A stretch of 21,258 nucleotides of DNA from a virus, in the IMG/VR virus record IMGVR_UViG_3300032607_000049, positions 1 through 21,258 of that record. The stretch is one strand, 5' to 3'. Positions 10,944 through 20,463 of the stretch are shown one piece after another. Both the position numbers and the translations under genes were made by a program. Under the pieces are notes generated by a model. That model was not told where the DNA came from and did not search any database. It saw only the letters and a list, made by a program, of their open reading frames with translations. Positions within the stretch are counted from its first letter, which is position 1. Each line of letters begins with the position of its first letter.

Positions 10944-10971
10944 ACCCCCGGCTAAACACCGGGGGTTTTTT
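10944..10971 (+). terminator. rho-independent terminator at the convergent junction
   Basis: A perfect 7-base-pair stem, CCCCCGG (10945-10951) with CCGGGGG (10959-10965), loop CTAAACA, is followed by six T (10966-10971). An extra A-T pair is possible at the base. It terminates + strand transcripts. On the - strand the stem is not followed by a T-run, so it works best in one direction. A second small hairpin, GCACC/GGTGC, lies at 10910-10925. The stop codon of the - strand giant gene (10970-10972) overlaps the T-run. Confidence 0.9.
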
Positions 10972-13900
10972 ATTTACTAAGATCGCGCACTTGTTTATCT
11001 AGCATACGCACATATTGCAGTGAAGCATTTTCTTGTTTAATAATATCGTCAATTGCTTCACGGCGTTCTTTACTGGTCATACCTGACAACGCCTCTGTAG
11101 TGGTTTCCAACTGTTGACGGAGTTGGCGTGTTTGGCTTAACTGTTTTAACGATTCGTTTAAGATAGGAGCAACAGAAATCAGTGCTGCATTCTTATCAAA
11201 ATAATCGACGGCTTTATCTGGCGCAGTTTCTTGCATGTTCTTAAACGTCATTTCAGCCTGACTTACTTTATTTTGCAAGTCATAGAATTCATTTTTAGCG
11301 CGGCCACCTTCAGTGTTGTACAAGAACAAACTTGCAAACGGCATCTGATACAAGGGGCGGTCAGGGCGGCTTGGGTTAATCAAAGCGTCTGTCAACAATA
11401 GTGTGGATGAACCTGCAATACCAAACAACCCACGCAACAAGTTGTCAACCTTGATAGGTGATACTTCCACAATCTTAGCACCCGTCACTTCCCCAAGCTT
11501 CTGCGATAGTGCGCCGATAGATTTGGCCAACTCGGATGTACTGCTTGTTGAACGCTGTGACTTATCAAGCCTTTCCATAGAGGCGGATTCCAACTCACGT
11601 TGCAAGAAGAACGAATGGTTGGTTACGTTTTCAAGCACAGGTTTAATTAACGCAGGTGTTGCATTGGGTGACCCGTATGCAGAGATGCCCCCTGTAACAA
11701 TCGTGCTAAGCAGGTTAAGTATGGTCTGCTCTTCATCTGTGCCATAGCGACGATAGTAGTTAACCAACCGTTCTGGGATTGACTTGAACAGGAAGCCAAT
11801 TTCTTTTGGCAACGGAATCTTTTTGTCTGTGTAGGGAATTAAGAAGTTGTTATCACGCACTTCTTCAGATGCGTTCTTATAACCCTCATCGTCACCAAAC
11901 GCCAAGGCATACATAAAGCCAAGTGCTGTCAGCTTCATAGCCATTTTGTAGAACTGCTTACGCGCTTCCATACGCTCTGAACCCGTTGCAGAATCCAGAC
12001 CACTTGCAGTGCGGTATGTAACATCCATACCCTGCACGTATGCGTTCATGAACGGTACTACATGGCTGAGCGTACGGATTCTGGGATCAGACCCACGGCG
12101 GCTAAAGTTAATTAACTCACGAGCACGTAACTGCGCAAGTTCTACGTCACCACCTGTGATGTCGCCATTTTTATCTTTCTTGCCACCTGTCTCAAGCAAG
12201 GTTTCCTCAAACACCGCCAAGCGTGCGGCAAGGTCAGATGCTTTAGTAATTTTTTCAAGCACGTGGTACACGGTAGCAGCTATGCCTCGCTTCTCAGCGC
12301 CAGCCGCAATCTTAATATCCTGTGCAGGGTTAATGATGTTGACATCATAGTCGCCAAGGACGCCAAGCTTTTCCATCATACGCACCAAAGGTATTTTCTT
12401 GCTAACACCCAAAGCTTGCAAGGCATCGGAAGTTAGCAGGCGTGGGAAGTTGTACAGCGTTTTCATACCAACAACCATTGGGCGTGTAACACCTGAGTGA
12501 AACATTGCACGTTGTGAGTCTTCTATCACCTGCTTAACTGAGAACGCGGGGAAAGCCGTTACGCCCACACGCAGCCATCTAGCGCCGGGGGCTAACATAG
12601 CAGTGAATCCAGTCAATACTTCAGGTGCCATTTGGAACGCTTGGAAATCAGCAAGGCTTTCAACTTCAAACTCAACGGGTTTACCTTCACGATAAACTTT
12701 GACAACTAGTTTAGGATTTTTTAGTGCTTCACCGGGCGTAAGTTCTTTTGCAAACCCACCAAGCGCCATCGTATCTAGCACGTTGTAGGAAGCGTTGTTA
12801 TGTACAGCCTCTGTAATCATCCAACTTAATCGGCCAGTGTAGGAATCAAATACGTTTTTGATGGGGCGTTCAAACGAACCTTTCATGCCTTCAAGGTTAC
12901 GCAATGCCGCAATGCCAGTAAATCCACGCCCTCTAACCGGGCCTTCGGTTTCTACAAATACACGATCAAATGGTACGTACGCGGCGTTGTCTTTCCAGAA
13001 CTGCCCTTGTTCTTTGGTGATACGACCTGTTGCAATCGATAAATCAATTGCTTGTGTACGGGTTGCGTTCATCGTATCAAGGATAGCCTTAACTTCGGGT
13101 GACTTCTGGAAGGCTGCTTCCAACGTATCAATGTCAGCGTTGTCCATGTGACGCGCCAACTTCTTTTTACGTTCAGCATCAGCAAGTTTATTTTTACCTT
13201 GCTGTTCAAGGGTCAGGGCAGATGCTTCCAAAAGCTTGTCATGCTCTTCGCGCATGTTGTGTAAGCGGTGGCCTTCCAACAAAGAAGATACATAAGACTC
13301 AGCGTCCTTGTAAGTCATGTCGCTCTTAGAAGCCAAATCAACCAACTGCTCTATTGCACCCTGCAAAGAATCTTTGGTATCAACAGTTTCAATCAACCCG
13401 CTCTTACGCATCCTAATACCGCCAGCTTGGAAAAAATCAAGCACCAACTTACGGGCTTCTTCTGCTTGGCGTGCCAGCACCATAGGACTTAAATCACCAA
13501 AGGCGTTTTTAAATCCTTTAGAGTACATTTTTTCAATCTTATTACTGACTGTTGCGTACTTGTCAGCAAGTTTCTGGCGTGTAATAAGTTTGGCTTGGTC
13601 GCGTGTTTCAACATCACCTACGCTTTTGAGCACCTGAACCAACGATTTCTTTTCCTGTTCTTTATATATTTCAGGCGTCTTATCTTGGATAGCTTGTACC
13701 GCACGGCGGGTGTTCTCATCAATACCGCCGGGCACCGAGAAGCGGCGTGTCAAGCGCATGTTTACAGGGCCAGCGCCAACTGCGGCAGTCATGGCTTCTT
13801 GTACAAACTTCTCAACTTCTGTGTAGGTTGCAGACCGGATGCTCTGTGCAACTTGACGCAAGCCCATCTTCTCGGCAACGTCAGCCAACCATTTTGCAAT

Positions 13901-16900
13901 AGAACGTACAAACGCACGTTGACCTGTACCAATCTTCTTGCCTGTCTTTAACTCTTCGGCAATACGTGCAAGTGCTTCGTCTGTACCATGGGCAGTCAAC
14001 GCGTTCAGTTGATCCCGTGGGTTGCTGTATTCTTTGGCGTATCCAGCTTTGGCATCTTGGCCTTCTTGTGAAGCAATCCACTTATCCGCCATCTCACGCA
14101 CTCGGGCGTTCATGCGGTACAGGTTAATCATTACCCTGTGATATTCTTTAGGGTTAGTCAAAAGCTTCTGCAAGCCAAGGTGGAACAGTTCGTGGAAGAT
14201 GGTCTTAGCCCCTTCAATGCCAGACTTGATGCCATCCCTAAACAGATACACGTTGCCATCTTTTACCAAACCTGCTGCACCAGCAGGCGCTTTAGGGTCA
14301 AGGTCTTTTGCGCTGTCAAGGATAGTTACTTCAACTTCACCACCCAAAGACTTCTTCACATCAGCCACAATGCCCTCAAGGTCGGCATTAGAAATAGGGT
14401 TATCAACAGGGTTTTGATCGTCTGTGATGCGTGCGCGTATTGGCTCCTTTGGTGGAAGTCCTTGCTCACGACCTAACGTATCTGCCTTGGCTTCTGATTT
14501 GGCAGTGGTTGGAGTTTCTGTACGTTCAACAACCTTTGTCTCGGGTTTAAACATTTCTGCCGTAGTTTCAGTTGCATCGGGCAACACAAAAATTAAGCCA
14601 CCATCTAATTTATCAATGTTTGGTTTGATCTTTTTAACGAACGTATCGTGCTTGGTATTGATACAACCGTAGCTAATGCGGTTGTCTTCCGTTGTTTCAG
14701 TATCTAAACGACCCAAACGATTTTCAGACGGCGTGCTGGTATCTGCCGCATGAATGGCAATATAGCCCGTGCTATCTTTAGATTCAACCAAAATTAACGT
14801 AGTATTTCCTACGAATTTAGCATCAGGAGATTCTTGTAGGGTGAATTTACCAGCGGGGGTAGTTTTTGCGCCACCCTGCAAAGAAGACACGGCTGCAAGC
14901 ACATCGCCCTTGTCCTTGCCGTATAGCGTAGGGTCAGACAGGGCGTGGGAACCATCTTCCTTAAAGATGTGCATCATGCCATTTGGTTTGTCAGCAACTA
15001 TGAACCACTTGCCGGTTTTCATTGCCACGGGTGCCATCGCGCCATACACATCTTGTGCAAGAGGCGACATCTTAGATTTAGCAACTTCGGGTACAGGCGC
15101 AGTTATTGAGATCGTTTCTTGAAACGTCTTTTGTATGTTGATGTTGTACTGATTAGTAACTGCGTTAGGGTTAAAGATTAGACCAACCGCAAGCACACCG
15201 GATGCAATCTGGTTAACAATCTCACGGATTGCTTTGGCTACAGCCTTAGAGCCTTCATTGATTGACTTGGTTACATCAGCACGTAACTTTTTCCAAAACT
15301 CTGGGTTGTCTTTCTTAACGCCATAGAAATCTTCAAGTTCTTCAACTTGGTCGTCTTGCAAACGGTTGACCGGGCCTTCCAATAACTTAAATTCGTTATC
15401 AGGGATTACCCGTGTCTCACCCTCAATGGTGTTGCTTTCGTCTGTAACCTTCTTGGGTTCAGGTTTAGCTTCAGGCGCTTGCTTTTGCTTGCTCTCATAA
15501 GCTTCAAGTGCAAACCTGACTTCATCTAACAGGTCTTCATACCCCATATCCTTGTCTTTGGATATGCTTTCAACCGCGTTCAAACTAACGTCGTCAATCA
15601 AGCCTGCTTTGTGCAGACGTTTGGCAAATGATTTAACTTTGGTTTTAGTTGTTTCAGGATCAAGGTCAAGATCATCAACAGTCTCACGTGCTTTATCAAG
15701 CGCCTTGTCAACCTTTGGTGTTTCTTTTGCAGGTTCAACTTTAACAAGGTCGGTCTTTGGCGTACCCTTCTTGACAACTTTAATAGGTGCGGGGGTTGTG
15801 GTAGGTGCGGTAACAATGGGCGCTGGTGTAGGCGCGGGAAGCGCAAGCTGTGTGACCTTCTTTACGGATGGTTGTGCCGCTTTGTTAGCCGCTTTCTTTT
15901 CAGCAGATTGACCAGTGGGTTTAGCGGGGGCTAGTGATGGGGCGTAAACAACCGTACCAAACTCAGTATTGTCAAAGCCCGGAATGTTACGTACGTCAAC
16001 ACCTTCAAACCCAAGAGCCTTCATTGTGCGGGTCGAAGCTGAATCTATGTAAGTGCGTTCAAAAATAACGTCATCAGTTCTGGCGGTGGTAGCTTCTTGA
16101 ACCGCGTTGGTAACTGCGGCCTTTACTTGATCTTTACCTATGTTTGTGCCTAAGCTTAACCAGATATTAGATGTGGCTTGATCAATCTTTTCTTGCGCGG
16201 CTGGGGTGTTTAAATCTTGACCAACAAGGTTGTTAACAGTTTTTAAGCCCTCGTGCAAATCTTTTGCATTGGTACTAGTTTGTGGTTTAGCAAGGTTGTA
16301 TTTAGATAAGTCAACCGTGTTGACGGATCTATCATCTCTAGCAAACTTATTGGTAGCTGCCTCTGGTTTTCCAACAAAGTACACCCCAGTACCAAAGTGT
16401 CCAGTACTTCTACCACCCGCCATTCTTCCTAATGTGGTATCACCCGCATAACCTAAATCACCCGCATGGTAGCCAGCGTTCTTAGGCGCTACTGGCGTTT
16501 CTACCTTTGACGTTTCTACTTTAGGCGCTTCTGTAACGGTAGGTACAACGGTAGGCGCTTCTGTAACGGTAGGTGCCGGGGTAGGTGCGGCGGGGGCAGG
16601 TGCGGGCACCGCTTCAAACTCAGGGCGACCAAGGAACGTATCAATCTTCTCAACGATGCCGGGGCTACGGCCTTCCTTGTAGATTGTCAACATGTTCTTT
16701 ACTTCAGCCGCATCTTCGGGCTTGGTAATGTCCAGACCTTGGATGGCATGGCCGGGCTTGCGCATCACAGCCGTGGGGCCAATACCCAATACGCCAAGCG
16801 CTTCGCTTGTAATGACAGGCGCAACGGTCAAAGGCGTGGGCTTTTGCAACACCACAGGTTCAATAACTGGTGGCTTCTGTACAATTATCTTTGGTGGGGC

Positions 16901-18769
16901 AACCTCGGCTTCGGCAGTTGGCGTACCTACGCGGGTAAACAAACCCAGTTGACCTGCATCTTTAGCGGCATTACGTTCAGCCTGACCTGCGCGAGCATCG
17001 CGTCTGTTCTGTAAGTCCAAGGCAGCTTGCGCTTCCTCTGCTGTCTGCACAGTTTTAAACTTGTCAGGTGCAGGTGGTGCGGGTACTTCTTGAATGATGG
17101 GCTGACCTAACAAATCAGTCTGGGGTATGGGGGCTTGCTCAACCGTAGCCGCACGTATTTCCATCTGCTGTGGTTCAGGAATAGTAAACGCAGTGGCCGC
17201 ATACTTAGCTTGCAAGTCTTCAGGCAGTTGCTTGATTACCTTGGCGTTCTCAGCCTGCATACGGCGGAACTCAGTTGGTACGCGGTTGTCTTCCTCAACA
17301 ATACCAACCATCAAGTCAGTAATAGTTTTAAGGCGTGCGCGTACATCTTTAGTTTGTGTTTGCCCTGCTAACGCTTGCTTTTCTTGGAACAACTCTGCGT
17401 ACGAGTTGGTCTTCTGCATTACATCGCTGTAATCATTTGGGAACGTCTGCTCCAGTTCAGCTTGGCGTTGGTTGCGTAGTGCTTGCAATTCTTTGGCGGC
17501 GGCTTGTTCAGCTTGTATAAGGACAGCCCGCTCTTGATCGGCTTGTGCTTGCGCTTCTGCATCAAGCAACTTCTCACCTTCACGGGCGGCACGGCCTTCC
17601 TTCACACCCATCTGCTCTTGCTGGCGTTCTTGCCTACGTTGCTGTACCTGTGCTTCTAGTTCGGTGGGTGTGGGCTGACCGGGTTGGCCGGTTGGCGGTG
17701 CGGTAGGTGTGGGCGCAGACGGGCTTGTAAATGGACTGACTGCTGAGCCACCCAGCATGCCCATCATGCCTTCTTTAGTTCCCGCACCTATTACGCCTTG
17801 CATTGCAGGGGTTTCAAATCCCTCGCGTGTCTGCGCCACATTGGATGCAAACTGCTCTTGACCGCCTTGAATACCTTCGGGTATAGCTTCTCTTAAACCT
17901 GTACCAACGGCACGTTTTGTACCCGCAATGATGCCTTTCTTAGCAACTTCTTCCCCAGCTTTTTTAGCCGCCGCTTCAGCAACGGGTTTAGATAGTTTCT
18001 TTAAAAGGTCTTTTTCCAAACCTGTACCACCAGCCACCGCACCAATACTGGTGCCAGCCATGATGTTGTCCCAGTTTTTACCAGTAAAACTTTGTGCTTC
18101 TAACGCAATCTTAGAAACTTCTTCTTTGGAAAGGTCGGGGTATTGCTTGCTAACTTCTTCTTTGACGGCATCGTAAATAGAACCTTTGACGGAACCCGCA
18201 CCTTGTAATGCACCAAGGGCGTACTTTGTACCAATACCAACAGCGGCGGCAAACGCAAGGGCAGGGGCACCTACCAAACCAATACCAACAGCGGCAGCAC
18301 TTGCCAAAGCAGCCGCGCCTATACTCAATGCAACAGTAGGAATAGATGAACCAATTGCGGATGCAGTGGCTTGGATGGGGGCTTCAGTAACACCAGCGGC
18401 ACTGGCTTTGATTTCTTCTAATGTGCTACCAGACCTAGCGGCGGCTTTTTCAAGTGCGGCACGGCGAGCTTGTTCAGCTTGACGTTCAGGTGTATAGAGT
18501 TGCCCCAAACCCTTTTGCAGGTTGCCAAGGGTTTCCACTCCGGGGGCTTCTGCGCCAAAACCTTGTAGTGTAGATTTAGCCGCACCAACGGCACTTTGCA
18601 AACCTGCAACAGCCGTGTCACCAAAAGAAGCGCCAGCTTCTTTAAATGGCGTACCTGACTCAGGATTTTTGGCCATAACAGCCATTGCCACTTCTTCCTT
18701 AGACGCACCATCTGGCCCCTCAATTTCGTACGTTAATCCGTTGGGGGCTGTGATGCGGTAGAGTGCCAT
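10970..18769 (-). CDS. giant multi-domain phage polyvalent/internal virion protein
   Basis: The 2599-residue protein fills 7.8 kb. In order: N-terminal MALYRITAPNGLTYEIEGP with GASKEE (1-30); an alanine/glycine-rich hydrophobic segment (about 133-190) that may insert in membranes; a glutamine-rich coiled coil (about 365-490); proline-rich linkers; an ADP-ribosyltransferase-like domain (about 765-945: H768, Y797, E936); an L,D-transpeptidase-like domain (about 1240-1405: H1340, C1369 in SYGCIN); an HExxH metallopeptidase-like motif (FHELFHLG, 1526-1530); and a long helical C-terminus with LINFSRRGSDP and VVPFMNAYVQGMD (about 2050-2300), resembling LPD38 of large polyvalent proteins. It may be packaged and ejected into the cell, where it modifies peptidoglycan and host proteins. 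No Shine-Dalgarno sequence is visible; the start lies two bases after the upstream stop. Confidence 0.82.
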   Translation of the reverse strand: MALYRITAPNGLTYEIEGPDGASKEEVAMAVMAKNPESGTPFKEAGASFGDTAVAGLQSAVGAAKSTLQGFGAEAPGVETLGNLQKGLGQLYTPERQAEQARRAALEKAAARSGSTLEEIKASAAGVTEAPIQATASAIGSSIPTVALSIGAAALASAAAVGIGLVGAPALAFAAAVGIGTKYALGALQGAGSVKGSIYDAVKEEVSKQYPDLSKEEVSKIALEAQSFTGKNWDNIMAGTSIGAVAGGTGLEKDLLKKLSKPVAEAAAKKAGEEVAKKGIIAGTKRAVGTGLREAIPEGIQGGQEQFASNVAQTREGFETPAMQGVIGAGTKEGMMGMLGGSAVSPFTSPSAPTPTAPPTGQPGQPTPTELEAQVQQRRQERQQEQMGVKEGRAAREGEKLLDAEAQAQADQERAVLIQAEQAAAKELQALRNQRQAELEQTFPNDYSDVMQKTNSYAELFQEKQALAGQTQTKDVRARLKTITDLMVGIVEEDNRVPTEFRRMQAENAKVIKQLPEDLQAKYAATAFTIPEPQQMEIRAATVEQAPIPQTDLLGQPIIQEVPAPPAPDKFKTVQTAEEAQAALDLQNRRDARAGQAERNAAKDAGQLGLFTRVGTPTAEAEVAPPKIIVQKPPVIEPVVLQKPTPLTVAPVITSEALGVLGIGPTAVMRKPGHAIQGLDITKPEDAAEVKNMLTIYKEGRSPGIVEKIDTFLGRPEFEAVPAPAPAAPTPAPTVTEAPTVVPTVTEAPKVETSKVETPVAPKNAGYHAGDLGYAGDTTLGRMAGGRSTGHFGTGVYFVGKPEAATNKFARDDRSVNTVDLSKYNLAKPQTSTNAKDLHEGLKTVNNLVGQDLNTPAAQEKIDQATSNIWLSLGTNIGKDQVKAAVTNAVQEATTARTDDVIFERTYIDSASTRTMKALGFEGVDVRNIPGFDNTEFGTVVYAPSLAPAKPTGQSAEKKAANKAAQPSVKKVTQLALPAPTPAPIVTAPTTTPAPIKVVKKGTPKTDLVKVEPAKETPKVDKALDKARETVDDLDLDPETTKTKVKSFAKRLHKAGLIDDVSLNAVESISKDKDMGYEDLLDEVRFALEAYESKQKQAPEAKPEPKKVTDESNTIEGETRVIPDNEFKLLEGPVNRLQDDQVEELEDFYGVKKDNPEFWKKLRADVTKSINEGSKAVAKAIREIVNQIASGVLAVGLIFNPNAVTNQYNINIQKTFQETISITAPVPEVAKSKMSPLAQDVYGAMAPVAMKTGKWFIVADKPNGMMHIFKEDGSHALSDPTLYGKDKGDVLAAVSSLQGGAKTTPAGKFTLQESPDAKFVGNTTLILVESKDSTGYIAIHAADTSTPSENRLGRLDTETTEDNRISYGCINTKHDTFVKKIKPNIDKLDGGLIFVLPDATETTAEMFKPETKVVERTETPTTAKSEAKADTLGREQGLPPKEPIRARITDDQNPVDNPISNADLEGIVADVKKSLGGEVEVTILDSAKDLDPKAPAGAAGLVKDGNVYLFRDGIKSGIEGAKTIFHELFHLGLQKLLTNPKEYHRVMINLYRMNARVREMADKWIASQEGQDAKAGYAKEYSNPRDQLNALTAHGTDEALARIAEELKTGKKIGTGQRAFVRSIAKWLADVAEKMGLRQVAQSIRSATYTEVEKFVQEAMTAAVGAGPVNMRLTRRFSVPGGIDENTRRAVQAIQDKTPEIYKEQEKKSLVQVLKSVGDVETRDQAKLITRQKLADKYATVSNKIEKMYSKGFKNAFGDLSPMVLARQAEEARKLVLDFFQAGGIRMRKSGLIETVDTKDSLQGAIEQLVDLASKSDMTYKDAESYVSSLLEGHRLHNMREEHDKLLEASALTLEQQGKNKLADAERKKKLARHMDNADIDTLEAAFQKSPEVKAILDTMNATRTQAIDLSIATGRITKEQGQFWKDNAAYVPFDRVFVETEGPVRGRGFTGIAALRNLEGMKGSFERPIKNVFDSYTGRLSWMITEAVHNNASYNVLDTMALGGFAKELTPGEALKNPKLVVKVYREGKPVEFEVESLADFQAFQMAPEVLTGFTAMLAPGARWLRVGVTAFPAFSVKQVIEDSQRAMFHSGVTRPMVVGMKTLYNFPRLLTSDALQALGVSKKIPLVRMMEKLGVLGDYDVNIINPAQDIKIAAGAEKRGIAATVYHVLEKITKASDLAARLAVFEETLLETGGKKDKNGDITGGDVELAQLRARELINFSRRGSDPRIRTLSHVVPFMNAYVQGMDVTYRTASGLDSATGSERMEARKQFYKMAMKLTALGFMYALAFGDDEGYKNASEEVRDNNFLIPYTDKKIPLPKEIGFLFKSIPERLVNYYRRYGTDEEQTILNLLSTIVTGGISAYGSPNATPALIKPVLENVTNHSFFLQRELESASMERLDKSQRSTSSTSELAKSIGALSQKLGEVTGAKIVEVSPIKVDNLLRGLFGIAGSSTLLLTDALINPSRPDRPLYQMPFASLFLYNTEGGRAKNEFYDLQNKVSQAEMTFKNMQETAPDKAVDYFDKNAALISVAPILNESLKQLSQTRQLRQQLETTTEALSGMTSKERREAIDDIIKQENASLQYVRMLDKQVRDLSK
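16522..16574 (-). repeat. two-copy 23-base direct repeat in the giant gene
   Basis: The 23 bases 16522-16544 recur exactly at 16552-16574, a 30-base period. They encode the TVTEAP repeats of a proline/threonine/valine linker just before the ADP-ribosyltransferase-like domain. Such linkers can vary in copy number by slippage or recombination. Confidence 0.85.
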
Positions 18770-18771
18770 GG

Positions 18772-20463
18772 CTATTTAGGTGTTACGACTCGGGCGTCTT
18801 TCCACAAGTCAAGATTTAAATTACCGCCACCAAGTTTACCGCCGGTAGGGGTTGCTGTTGGTATTGTACCGCTGGGGTCTAATTGCGCAAGCAGTCTTTC
18901 AGTTTCTTTTTTAATAAGGTCTTCTTTATAAGCTGCTGGATCAAACATTGCACCTGCTTTTTTAGCGGCGGCGGCGGCTACCGTTCGATCATACATAAAC
19001 GTCTTGCTGTTTGTAACGTTATCGCTTGCTTTATCCCGTATTGTTGCAAGTTGGGCAGGAGTTAATTGACCTCTTGCGCCTGCGGCAGAATTAGCCCGTG
19101 CCATAAGTGCATTAGCCCCAATTTGTGCAACCTTTTCTCTAGACTGACGATCCAAACCGCCTTCTTCCGCTTTTGAAGCTACCTCAAAGAGTTTGCGTGA
19201 ATCGTCTTTGGCAATACCATAAGCTTGTTCCATGCCTTTGAGCGCATCTTTTTCTGCGCCCACAACGGTTTTGCCAATTTCGGTTTTAAGCGTTCTACGA
19301 TCCCGAGTAGTCATAAAGGCTTCATTACGGCGTAGGGTATCTAAACCATCACGCGCATCATCAATCTTTTCTTGGGCGGCACGTAGGCGTTCAATACCAC
19401 TTGCATACGCTTTAGTTCCAACAGCCGCGCCTTCTGCAATACCTGCTAACCCACGGCCTTTTGACTGCATCATGGCCAAACCGGCTTCAATGATAGACAT
19501 GTTGGTATTCAAATCTTTTTGCTTACCAAGCTCAGCTTCTCGTTTATTGATGCGTGCTTCTTGGGGTTTACCTGCTTCCCCCAGTTTCGCTATGTCTGCG
19601 TCATAGTCTGTCAGATTTGTTCTAGCAAGATTTGTTTCTTTCTCTGCCACTTTTGCACGTTGAGCCGCAAACGGATCAACAATATCTTTGGGCATAAAGC
19701 TACCCATCAACTGTTTATAGTCTTCAGGTTTAGTAGCTGTAAGGGGTGCTGGTCGTGCCCCTGCTTTTTGTGGGGGTGGAGCCTTTGGTGTGGGTCTGCT
19801 GTAATCATCAAACGCGCCTTCAAGTTCCATCTGCTTTCTACGAGCGGCAATCTGCGCATCAATATTGGTAAACTCATCAGGGTATCCTACAAGACTGCCG
19901 TCTCCTCCCATTTCCATGGGAACGCCTTGATAGCGTGGGATACCGCCATCTGCCATACGAACTACAGGTTCGCCAGCGTTCATCATGTCTTCGTCGGTGT
20001 AGCCACCATCAGCAAAAGCTACGATACCACCACCGGCCATGTTCTGCATATTAGGCGCAGGCAGTTGTGCAATTCCTTGGTCTTCTGGCAACTGACCTCC
20101 ACCTTGTGGTGGCATACCCTGACCGCCTTGTGGTGGCATACCTTGTGGTGGCATACCTTGTGGTGGCATACCTTGTGGTGGCATACCTTGTGGTGGCATC
20201 TGTGGAACAGGATCCATGTTCTGCACAACTTGCTGGTTTACTGGCGGCATGTTACCGCCTTGCGATGCGTTGGCTTTTTGTGCGTACTCTTCACGTTTTG
20301 CATGCACCGCTTGGGCAGCGCCCAGCATAACCATATCTTCTTGGTGTTCAGCGGCAAACGCTTTTAACTGATCGGTGCTCATCACCGCAAGCTTGGCCAG
20401 AACCGAATCAAGGCTTGGGTTACGGATGTCTTCGTGTGGACGATAGATGCTTGATAAAGACAT
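18772..20463 (-). CDS. probable virion-associated protein with MPPQG repeats
   Basis: The 563-residue protein has a helical N-terminus (1-70), a proline/glutamine/glycine-rich segment with five exact MPPQG units and a sixth nearby (89-125), then GGGIVAFADGG (144-154) and MADGGIPRY (170-178), motifs I associate with tail or internal virion proteins of metagenomic phages. The rest (about 205-480) is charged and helical, including MSIIEAGLAMMQSKGRGL and a long coiled coil. By place and size it may match the T7 gp15 layer of the ejection apparatus, an inference from gene order. It starts at ATG 20463 behind AAGAGGT and ends two bases before the giant gene, so both are probably translated together. 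Confidence 0.75.
   Translation of the reverse strand: MSLSSIYRPHEDIRNPSLDSVLAKLAVMSTDQLKAFAAEHQEDMVMLGAAQAVHAKREEYAQKANASQGGNMPPVNQQVVQNMDPVPQMPPQGMPPQGMPPQGMPPQGMPPQGGQGMPPQGGGQLPEDQGIAQLPAPNMQNMAGGGIVAFADGGYTDEDMMNAGEPVVRMADGGIPRYQGVPMEMGGDGSLVGYPDEFTNIDAQIAARRKQMELEGAFDDYSRPTPKAPPPQKAGARPAPLTATKPEDYKQLMGSFMPKDIVDPFAAQRAKVAEKETNLARTNLTDYDADIAKLGEAGKPQEARINKREAELGKQKDLNTNMSIIEAGLAMMQSKGRGLAGIAEGAAVGTKAYASGIERLRAAQEKIDDARDGLDTLRRNEAFMTTRDRRTLKTEIGKTVVGAEKDALKGMEQAYGIAKDDSRKLFEVASKAEEGGLDRQSREKVAQIGANALMARANSAAGARGQLTPAQLATIRDKASDNVTNSKTFMYDRTVAAAAAKKAGAMFDPAAYKEDLIKKETERLLAQLDPSGTIPTATPTGGKLGGGNLNLDLWKDARVVTPK
20102..20200 (-). repeat. 15-base tandem repeats encoding MPPQG
   Basis: Five consecutive 15-base units of CCTTGTGGTGGCATA occupy 20126-20200, differing only in the last base of the final unit. 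A separate copy lies at 20102-20116, with an irregular 9-base spacer between. Read on the - strand they code for MPPQG. They are near-identical at DNA level, so they are recent or homogenised and prone to slippage. Confidence 0.95.

Follow-up and report, generated by a model that had tools for sequence, protein, structure and literature searches.

The window, that is the whole stretch of DNA analysed here, is a linear virus record of 21,258 bases from IMG/VR (IMGVR_UViG_3300032607_000049), whose minus strand carries a gene for a giant polyvalent protein of 2,599 amino acids (aa). An L,D-transpeptidase (LDT) domain with a conserved putative active site lies inside this protein, which is otherwise of a known phage type, and this is the surprise. 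We consider it reasonably probable that the protein is a polyvalent ejection protein resembling gp16 of phage T7, with swapped enzyme cassettes and with an LDT that would remodel the peptidoglycan at the DNA conduit.

The gene (Table 1) is a single uninterrupted frame with an ATG start. Homologues of its product were found in sixteen contigs, and independent viral contigs hold full-length ones of 2,383-2,854 aa. The ratio of nonsynonymous to synonymous substitutions (dN/dS), calculated pairwise along the chain between homologous cassettes with unsaturated dS, was 0.04-0.2. Because of the full-length homologues and these ratios, the open reading frame (ORF) is taken as a translated gene. A misread frame was discarded on dN/dS, and a chimeric assembly was discarded since the same architecture occurs in many independent contigs.

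The L,D-transpeptidase domain and its spread

An LDT had been placed at residues 1240-1405 in the initial annotation, which was made from the sequence of the window, and the domain is confirmed as a member of the LDT family. PF03734 matched residues 1256-1384 in the whole chain with E = 5.7e-4 and 20.9 bits, under the family cut-off of 23.4; when residues 1140-1425 were scanned alone, the match was over the cut-off (E = 2.2e-5, 25.5 bits). Residues 1110-1720 were modelled with AF2, giving a pLDDT of 55 overall and of 70-90 in the LDT core. Ranks 1-6 of a Foldseek search with this model were L,D-transpeptidases or the YkuD-like protein DpaA. In a second look with VIA all 50 listed rows were proteins of the LDT/YkuD fold (Z 10.5 to about 7.4), the best being 5bmq (Z 10.5, 2.9 Å, 116 residues) and YkuD, LdtMt1, LdtMt2, Pgp2, Csd6 and DpaA being among them. 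A PDB sequence search with the LDT profile gave no meaningful match, just NHL propellers on a short repeat-like stretch.

A profile scan for the LDT returned 114 relatives in viral contigs. The loci examined contain 68 distinct LDT sequences, which with that of the window make 69 alignment rows. Not only the putative catalytic residues (Table 1) but also TPAG (1304-1307) and GCxN are kept in every row. The hydrophobic helix before the domain has R1182 in 66 of 68 rows and N1200 and P1201 in all 69. Between scorable LDT pairs of the same type dN/dS was 0.055-0.13.

All 68 distinct LDTs lie inside giant ORFs, 45 of which are complete (2,304-4,424 aa, median 2,803). They also occur in other giant scaffolds: several C-termini are merely 15-17% identical to that of the window, and in one LDT giant LPD39 replaces LPD38. 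Almost every invariant column of alignment A6, which comprises 16 divergent giants, falls within the LDT cassette; judged from the aligned sequences, no other part of these otherwise divergent proteins is as conserved as the LDT. A peptidase signature with an HE motif follows the LDT within 420 residues in 40 of the 68.

A Pfam scan of 16 LDT giants found LPD38 in eight, ART-PolyVal in four, and helicase, methylase and ParB in one each. No lysozyme- or SLT-type Pfam match was obtained in these 16, and PF03734 missed their LDTs at the same threshold, which may be the reason that they escaped notice. Of the LDT giants in A6 (L117-L177), a match to phrog_2206, the family of phage virion RNA polymerases, was obtained for one (E = 1.6e-17), to SNF2/helicase models for one and to a methylase model for one; the LDT therefore co-occurs with N4-like and DarB-like payloads.

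Searched with tblastn against 50,697 phage records, neither the LDT of the window (best E 0.2) nor the second LDT type gave a convincing match. The LDT, without match in cultured phage records, is a good handle for finding phages of this group. One LDT giant, of 2,821 aa, lies in contig JACABD010000021.1 of a Geobacteraceae metagenome-assembled genome (L037), where internal virion protein genes, phrog_511 (E = 1e-126) and phrog_8003, precede it and an integrase follows. From these genes the LDT set appears to include a prophage of a Gram-negative host, and L037 is probably that prophage and a route to a cultivable member.

Exchangeable slots and the accompanying domains

Segment identities between the homologues reveal a conserved scaffold with exchangeable slots, A to D. 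Slot A (about 755-955) holds an ADP-ribosyltransferase (ART)-like domain in the window and in L002 and nothing in L003, L004, L006 and L013; other short unrelated segments fill it in L008 (12110-12712) and L017 (11495-12241). Two LDT types swap in slot B, and slot C takes three peptidase types, with the motifs HELFH, HELVH and HEVGAH. The PF18760 matches in slot D of L002, L008 and L013 have E values of 1.6e-23 to 4.6e-27.

The window and L002 are 85-94% identical in both flanks of the LDT and 33% in the LDT itself, whereas the LDTs of L003 and L004 are 91% identical, against 37% for their N-termini, 18% for their peptidases and 58% for their C-termini. From these contrasts it follows that the LDT moves as a cassette together with its hydrophobic helix. 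In L014 (4-651) a ParB-like sequence (GHEGRHRARALAALGY) stands before the peptidase where the LDT would be; this ORF lacks its 5' end, and an LDT further upstream is possible.

The combination of domains had been called unusual. The surprising part is the LDT, which the published survey of polyvalent proteins does not mention and tblastn did not find in the phage records. The combination itself represents one of several states of an architecture with exchangeable parts: the LDT occurs in at least 68 other giants, and close relatives either lack the ART or have it at another place. Whole enzyme cassettes exchanged at fixed slots form a natural series for studying effectors delivered together by phages.

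For the ART-like domain, initially assigned to residues 765-945, a motif scan with GHFGTGxY[FL] returned 78 viral stretches, yielding about 60 nonredundant homologous domains (loci L038-L115), which occur within giant ORFs and also on their own, in genes of about 190-350 aa. Alignment A4 retains H768, the HFGTGxY block, H839, N846, D925 and D933; among the slot-A homologues H768, Y797, D925 and D933 vary little or not at all. The AF2 model is confident (pLDDT 87.5, pTM 0.85) and places H768 and Y797 in strands 1 and 2, respectively, the strand of the invariant D925/D933 being ambiguous. Whole-domain rows in VIA, all of them weak matches, were the A-4L pre-ejectosome protein 9k3a_B (Z 4.7 over 136 residues) and the catalytic domains of PARP3, PARP2 and PARP10 (Z 3.2-2.7). 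Foldseek searches of PDB and BFVD with the same model gave nothing with E < 0.3.

By sequence the domain had no match in Pfam, PHROG or PDB. PF18760 (ART-PolyVal) matched none of 29 slot-A domains, and hhalign of slot A against the slot-D ARTs gave P about 0.017 over 29-34 columns. An identity with PF18760 or another Pfam or PHROG family was rejected, there being no matches. The ART piece found nothing by tblastn in the 50,697 phage records, and its profile did not match the 3,521-residue part of the Roseovarius podovirus 1 virion RNA polymerase that was searched, the ART prototype of Iyer 2017. The H-Y-D pattern of slot A, with an ambiguous acidic residue in the last strand, may fit the Tox-ART-HYD2 clade, which has been reported for polyvalent proteins (PMC5512222). 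On the VIA structure comparison and the motifs, residues 754-956 are probably, though not provenly, an ART of a branch outside PF18760. The analysis thus exposes a large phage ART-like family (GDLG/GHFGTGxY) without a Pfam model.

A peptidase with an HExxH motif had been suggested at residues 1500-1600. The motif is present, as HELFH, and the downstream DEALARIAEE, which has equivalents in the other slot-C types, fits the Glu-ligand helix of zincins; the fold matches to zincins are weak. Slot C is probably a zincin-like peptidase, as the motifs suggest. A tblastn search of the phage records with the peptidase piece gave nothing convincing (best E 0.007). The hydrophobic segment of the initial annotation corresponds to two regions by hydropathy, 137-182 and 1180-1200, and its polyvalent-type C-terminus is LPD38. 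Residues 1805-2581, which include LPD38, found tblastn matches in 49 cultured phages. Neither the whole protein nor a C-terminal profile had a meaningful match among PDB sequences.

Gene neighbourhood

The minus strand of the window carries the giant gene plus its two upstream neighbours, E1 and E2 (Table 1), and the plus strand carries replication genes (VRR-NUC nuclease, family A DNA polymerase, exonuclease, SNF2-type helicase and primase/helicase). E1 matches phrog_4287 'DNA ejection protein' with E = 8e-4 in the cut copy of the window, 4.7e-14 in L009 and 1.2e-11 in L006. At 34 of the 57 LDT loci having upstream sequence an E1 homologue lies about 1.5-2.3 kb upstream of the giant, and at 32 of the 57 an E2 homologue is directly adjacent (within about 80 nt). 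The giant protein, encoded behind E1 and E2, is by analogy most likely a third ejection protein, of the gp16 type; with its gene placed in an ejection-protein cassette, it is best read as delivered together with the DNA.

The L006 record contains TerL, a portal protein and a match to the head-tail adaptor phrog_332, which together fit a podovirus; eight records, a part of which are fragments, gave no match to a P22-type portal. No lysozyme- or SLT-type Pfam match was obtained in five upstream virion-module proteins of L009, and the endolysin is encoded by a separate gene. A 15-nt repeat in five tandem copies is present inside E2 (window positions 20126-20200).

Table 1. Features of the giant gene and its neighbours in the window
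Feature	Residues	Position	Strand	Evidence
Giant polyvalent protein, 2,599 aa		10970..18769	-	One open frame; full-length homologues
Paired Gly/Ala-rich hydrophobic segments, candidate membrane-penetrating hairpin	137-182	18224..18361	-	Hydropathy peaks 1.6 and 2.1
Slot A: candidate ADP-ribosyltransferase, GDLG/GHFGTGxY family	754-956	15902..16510	-	Homologues; alignment A4; AF2; fold matches
Hydrophobic helix accompanying LDT (AIRxIIxxIAxGVLAxGxxFNP)	1180-1200	15170..15232	-	Hydropathy; alignment
Slot B: L,D-transpeptidase (YkuD) catalytic domain	1256-1384	14618..15004	-	PF03734; Foldseek; VIA; alignment A1
Putative catalytic histidine	H1340	14750..14752	-	Checked on DNA; invariant 69/69
Putative catalytic cysteine, in SYGCIN	C1369	14663..14665	-	Checked on DNA; invariant 69/69
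Slot C: probable zincin-like metallopeptidase domain	1455-1680	13730..14407	-	HExxH, downstream DEALARIAEE; Foldseek
HELFH motif	1526-1530	14180..14194	-	Sequence
Slot D junction, empty in window; PF18760 ART in L002, L008, L013	after 1677	13738..13739	-	Pfam, alignment
LPD38	2294-2478	11336..11890	-	PF18857, E = 1.6e-30, score 107 vs cut-off 27
E2, next gene upstream (563 aa), second in putative ejection cassette		18772..20463	-	Homologues adjacent in LDT loci
E1, DNA ejection protein homologue, partial at contig end		20473..21222	-	phrog_4287

Proposed role and relation to known systems

The initial annotation proposed that the protein, if ejected with the DNA, could act in the periplasm first and on host proteins afterwards, a reading that is partly supported and agrees in outline with the one given here. 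We infer a virion location, ejection, the enzyme activities and the order in which these act as follows. The giant protein would be packed in the phage head and would exit via the short tail along with the two upstream ejection proteins, its hydrophobic segments inserting in the envelope. Where the conduit crosses the wall, the LDT would remodel the peptidoglycan, the task of the T7 gp16 lytic transglycosylase, and would stand in for the lytic transglycosylase of T7 gp16 and of JC1 gp69. The zincin-like peptidase might then cut the chain (or host targets), freeing the ART-like effector, which would modify host proteins. The scaffold is conserved while ART, LDT type and peptidase type are swapped by recombination. 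By analogy with JC1 gp69 and T7 gp16, the LDT is most likely the wall enzyme of these ejection proteins. The known phage entry enzymes, to our knowledge, degrade the wall (lytic transglycosylases, lysozymes, endopeptidases). If the proposal is true, an enzyme of the LDT class, which links peptidoglycan strands and lipoproteins, in giant ejection-type proteins would mean a different handling of the wall at entry.

Several points weigh against this proposal. LDTs usually make cross-links, unlike what an entry hole needs. The active-site motif is S-Y/F-G-C-I-N, unlike the common SHGC, and the cysteine is 29 residues past the histidine, a longer His-Cys loop than usual. For the peptidase, Foldseek rows 7-11 were abylysin/MATCAP with E 0.19-0.64, weak matches in a low-confidence region of the model. 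The ejection cassette was recognised at merely about 60% of the loci with upstream sequence.

The LDT could conceivably make bonds, resealing or reinforcing the wall or tethering the conduit to peptidoglycan, through 3-3 cross-links or by joining a phage lysine to the stem peptide; we regard this as possible but rather improbable. Bond formation is the classic LDT activity, LdtA-C for instance attaching Braun's lipoprotein to peptidoglycan, and the domain combines the LDT fold with the GCIN motif, keeps the cysteine and histidine in every sampled member and has the crosslinking LdtMt1/2 among its matches. Yet the hydrolases of the YkuD fold Pgp2, Csd6 and DpaA are also among the top structural rows, and no acceptor lysine was identified. 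The hydrolase action of DpaA has been described (PMC10653827, PMC8263019). It is doubtful that, in widespread uncultured phages, the ejection LDT makes bonds that weld the conduit to the wall or re-crosslink the breach, letting the cell live on after it has received the DNA and several effector enzymes of the one chain.

The hydrophobic helix before the LDT could also target the membrane from inside, as would suit a giant protein that is made in the cell, takes no part in entry and acts late on the host wall or proteins in takeover or lysis. Such a role is unlikely: the gene is on the virion-gene strand, beside the ejection-protein homologues and opposite the replication genes, an LPD38 relative is virion-borne (PMC9144972), and a separate endolysin exists. 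The non-standard SYGC/SFGC motif and the long His-Cys loop would suit a YkuD-like domain that has given up peptidoglycan and works on the polyprotein or host peptides, either as a cysteine peptidase or as a transpeptidase. Invariant core positions, TPAG among them, speak against this, as does the zincin, which already offers a processing enzyme; the explanation is quite improbable.

In the literature YkuD or transpeptidase in virions or ejection gave only endolysin-type or unrelated mentions, most subscription papers lying outside the coverage, and the words 'YkuD' and 'transpeptidase' are absent from the polyvalent-protein survey (PMC5512222). We therefore cannot claim firmly that an LDT in giant ejection-type proteins is unreported.

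The peptidoglycan-remodelling ejection protein proposed here shares with T7 gp16 its rank as the largest ejection protein, a peptidoglycan enzyme and parts that span the membrane (PMC8954989). T7 gp16 differs in its N-terminal lytic transglycosylase, which is needed where the wall is highly cross-linked (PMC8954989), in having no effector enzymes and in being half the size, and no sequence match to it was found. Burkholderia phage JC1 gp69 / Bcep22 gp75 ('DarB-like', 4,515 aa) shares LPD38 near the C-terminus, a peptidoglycan enzyme and further enzymes; it has an N-terminal lytic transglycosylase-like domain, LPD3 and helicase and methylase-like regions, with no LDT listed. JC1 gp69 was detected in podovirus virions by mass spectrometry (51 unique peptides; PMC9144972). 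Chain B of 9k3a, which is cyanophage A-4L gp27 over its full length, carries near residues 1420-1600 an ART-like domain, reading YHGT...GSGTYFS, that aligns to the slot-A model; the structural similarity is weak (Z 4.7), and this pre-ejectosome protein is 1,717 aa long, with no Pfam domain found and no LDT recognised.

The cellular proteins LdtMt2, YkuD, Pgp2, Csd6 and DpaA share the fold, the catalytic His/Cys and the TPxG motif with the phage LDT, which unlike them lies mid-chain in giants and has S[YF]GCIN and the long His-Cys loop. With the phage-type polyvalent proteins (PMC5512222) the giant protein has in common unrelated enzymes in one chain, a probable zincin-like peptidase, a domain that Iyer et al. 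propose to cut the chain into units, a probable ART, an LPD38 C-terminus and an exchangeable architecture. It differs from them in an ART branch undetected by PF18760 and, where the wall enzymes of that survey are lysozyme, SpoIID-like and DD-peptidase, in having an LDT.

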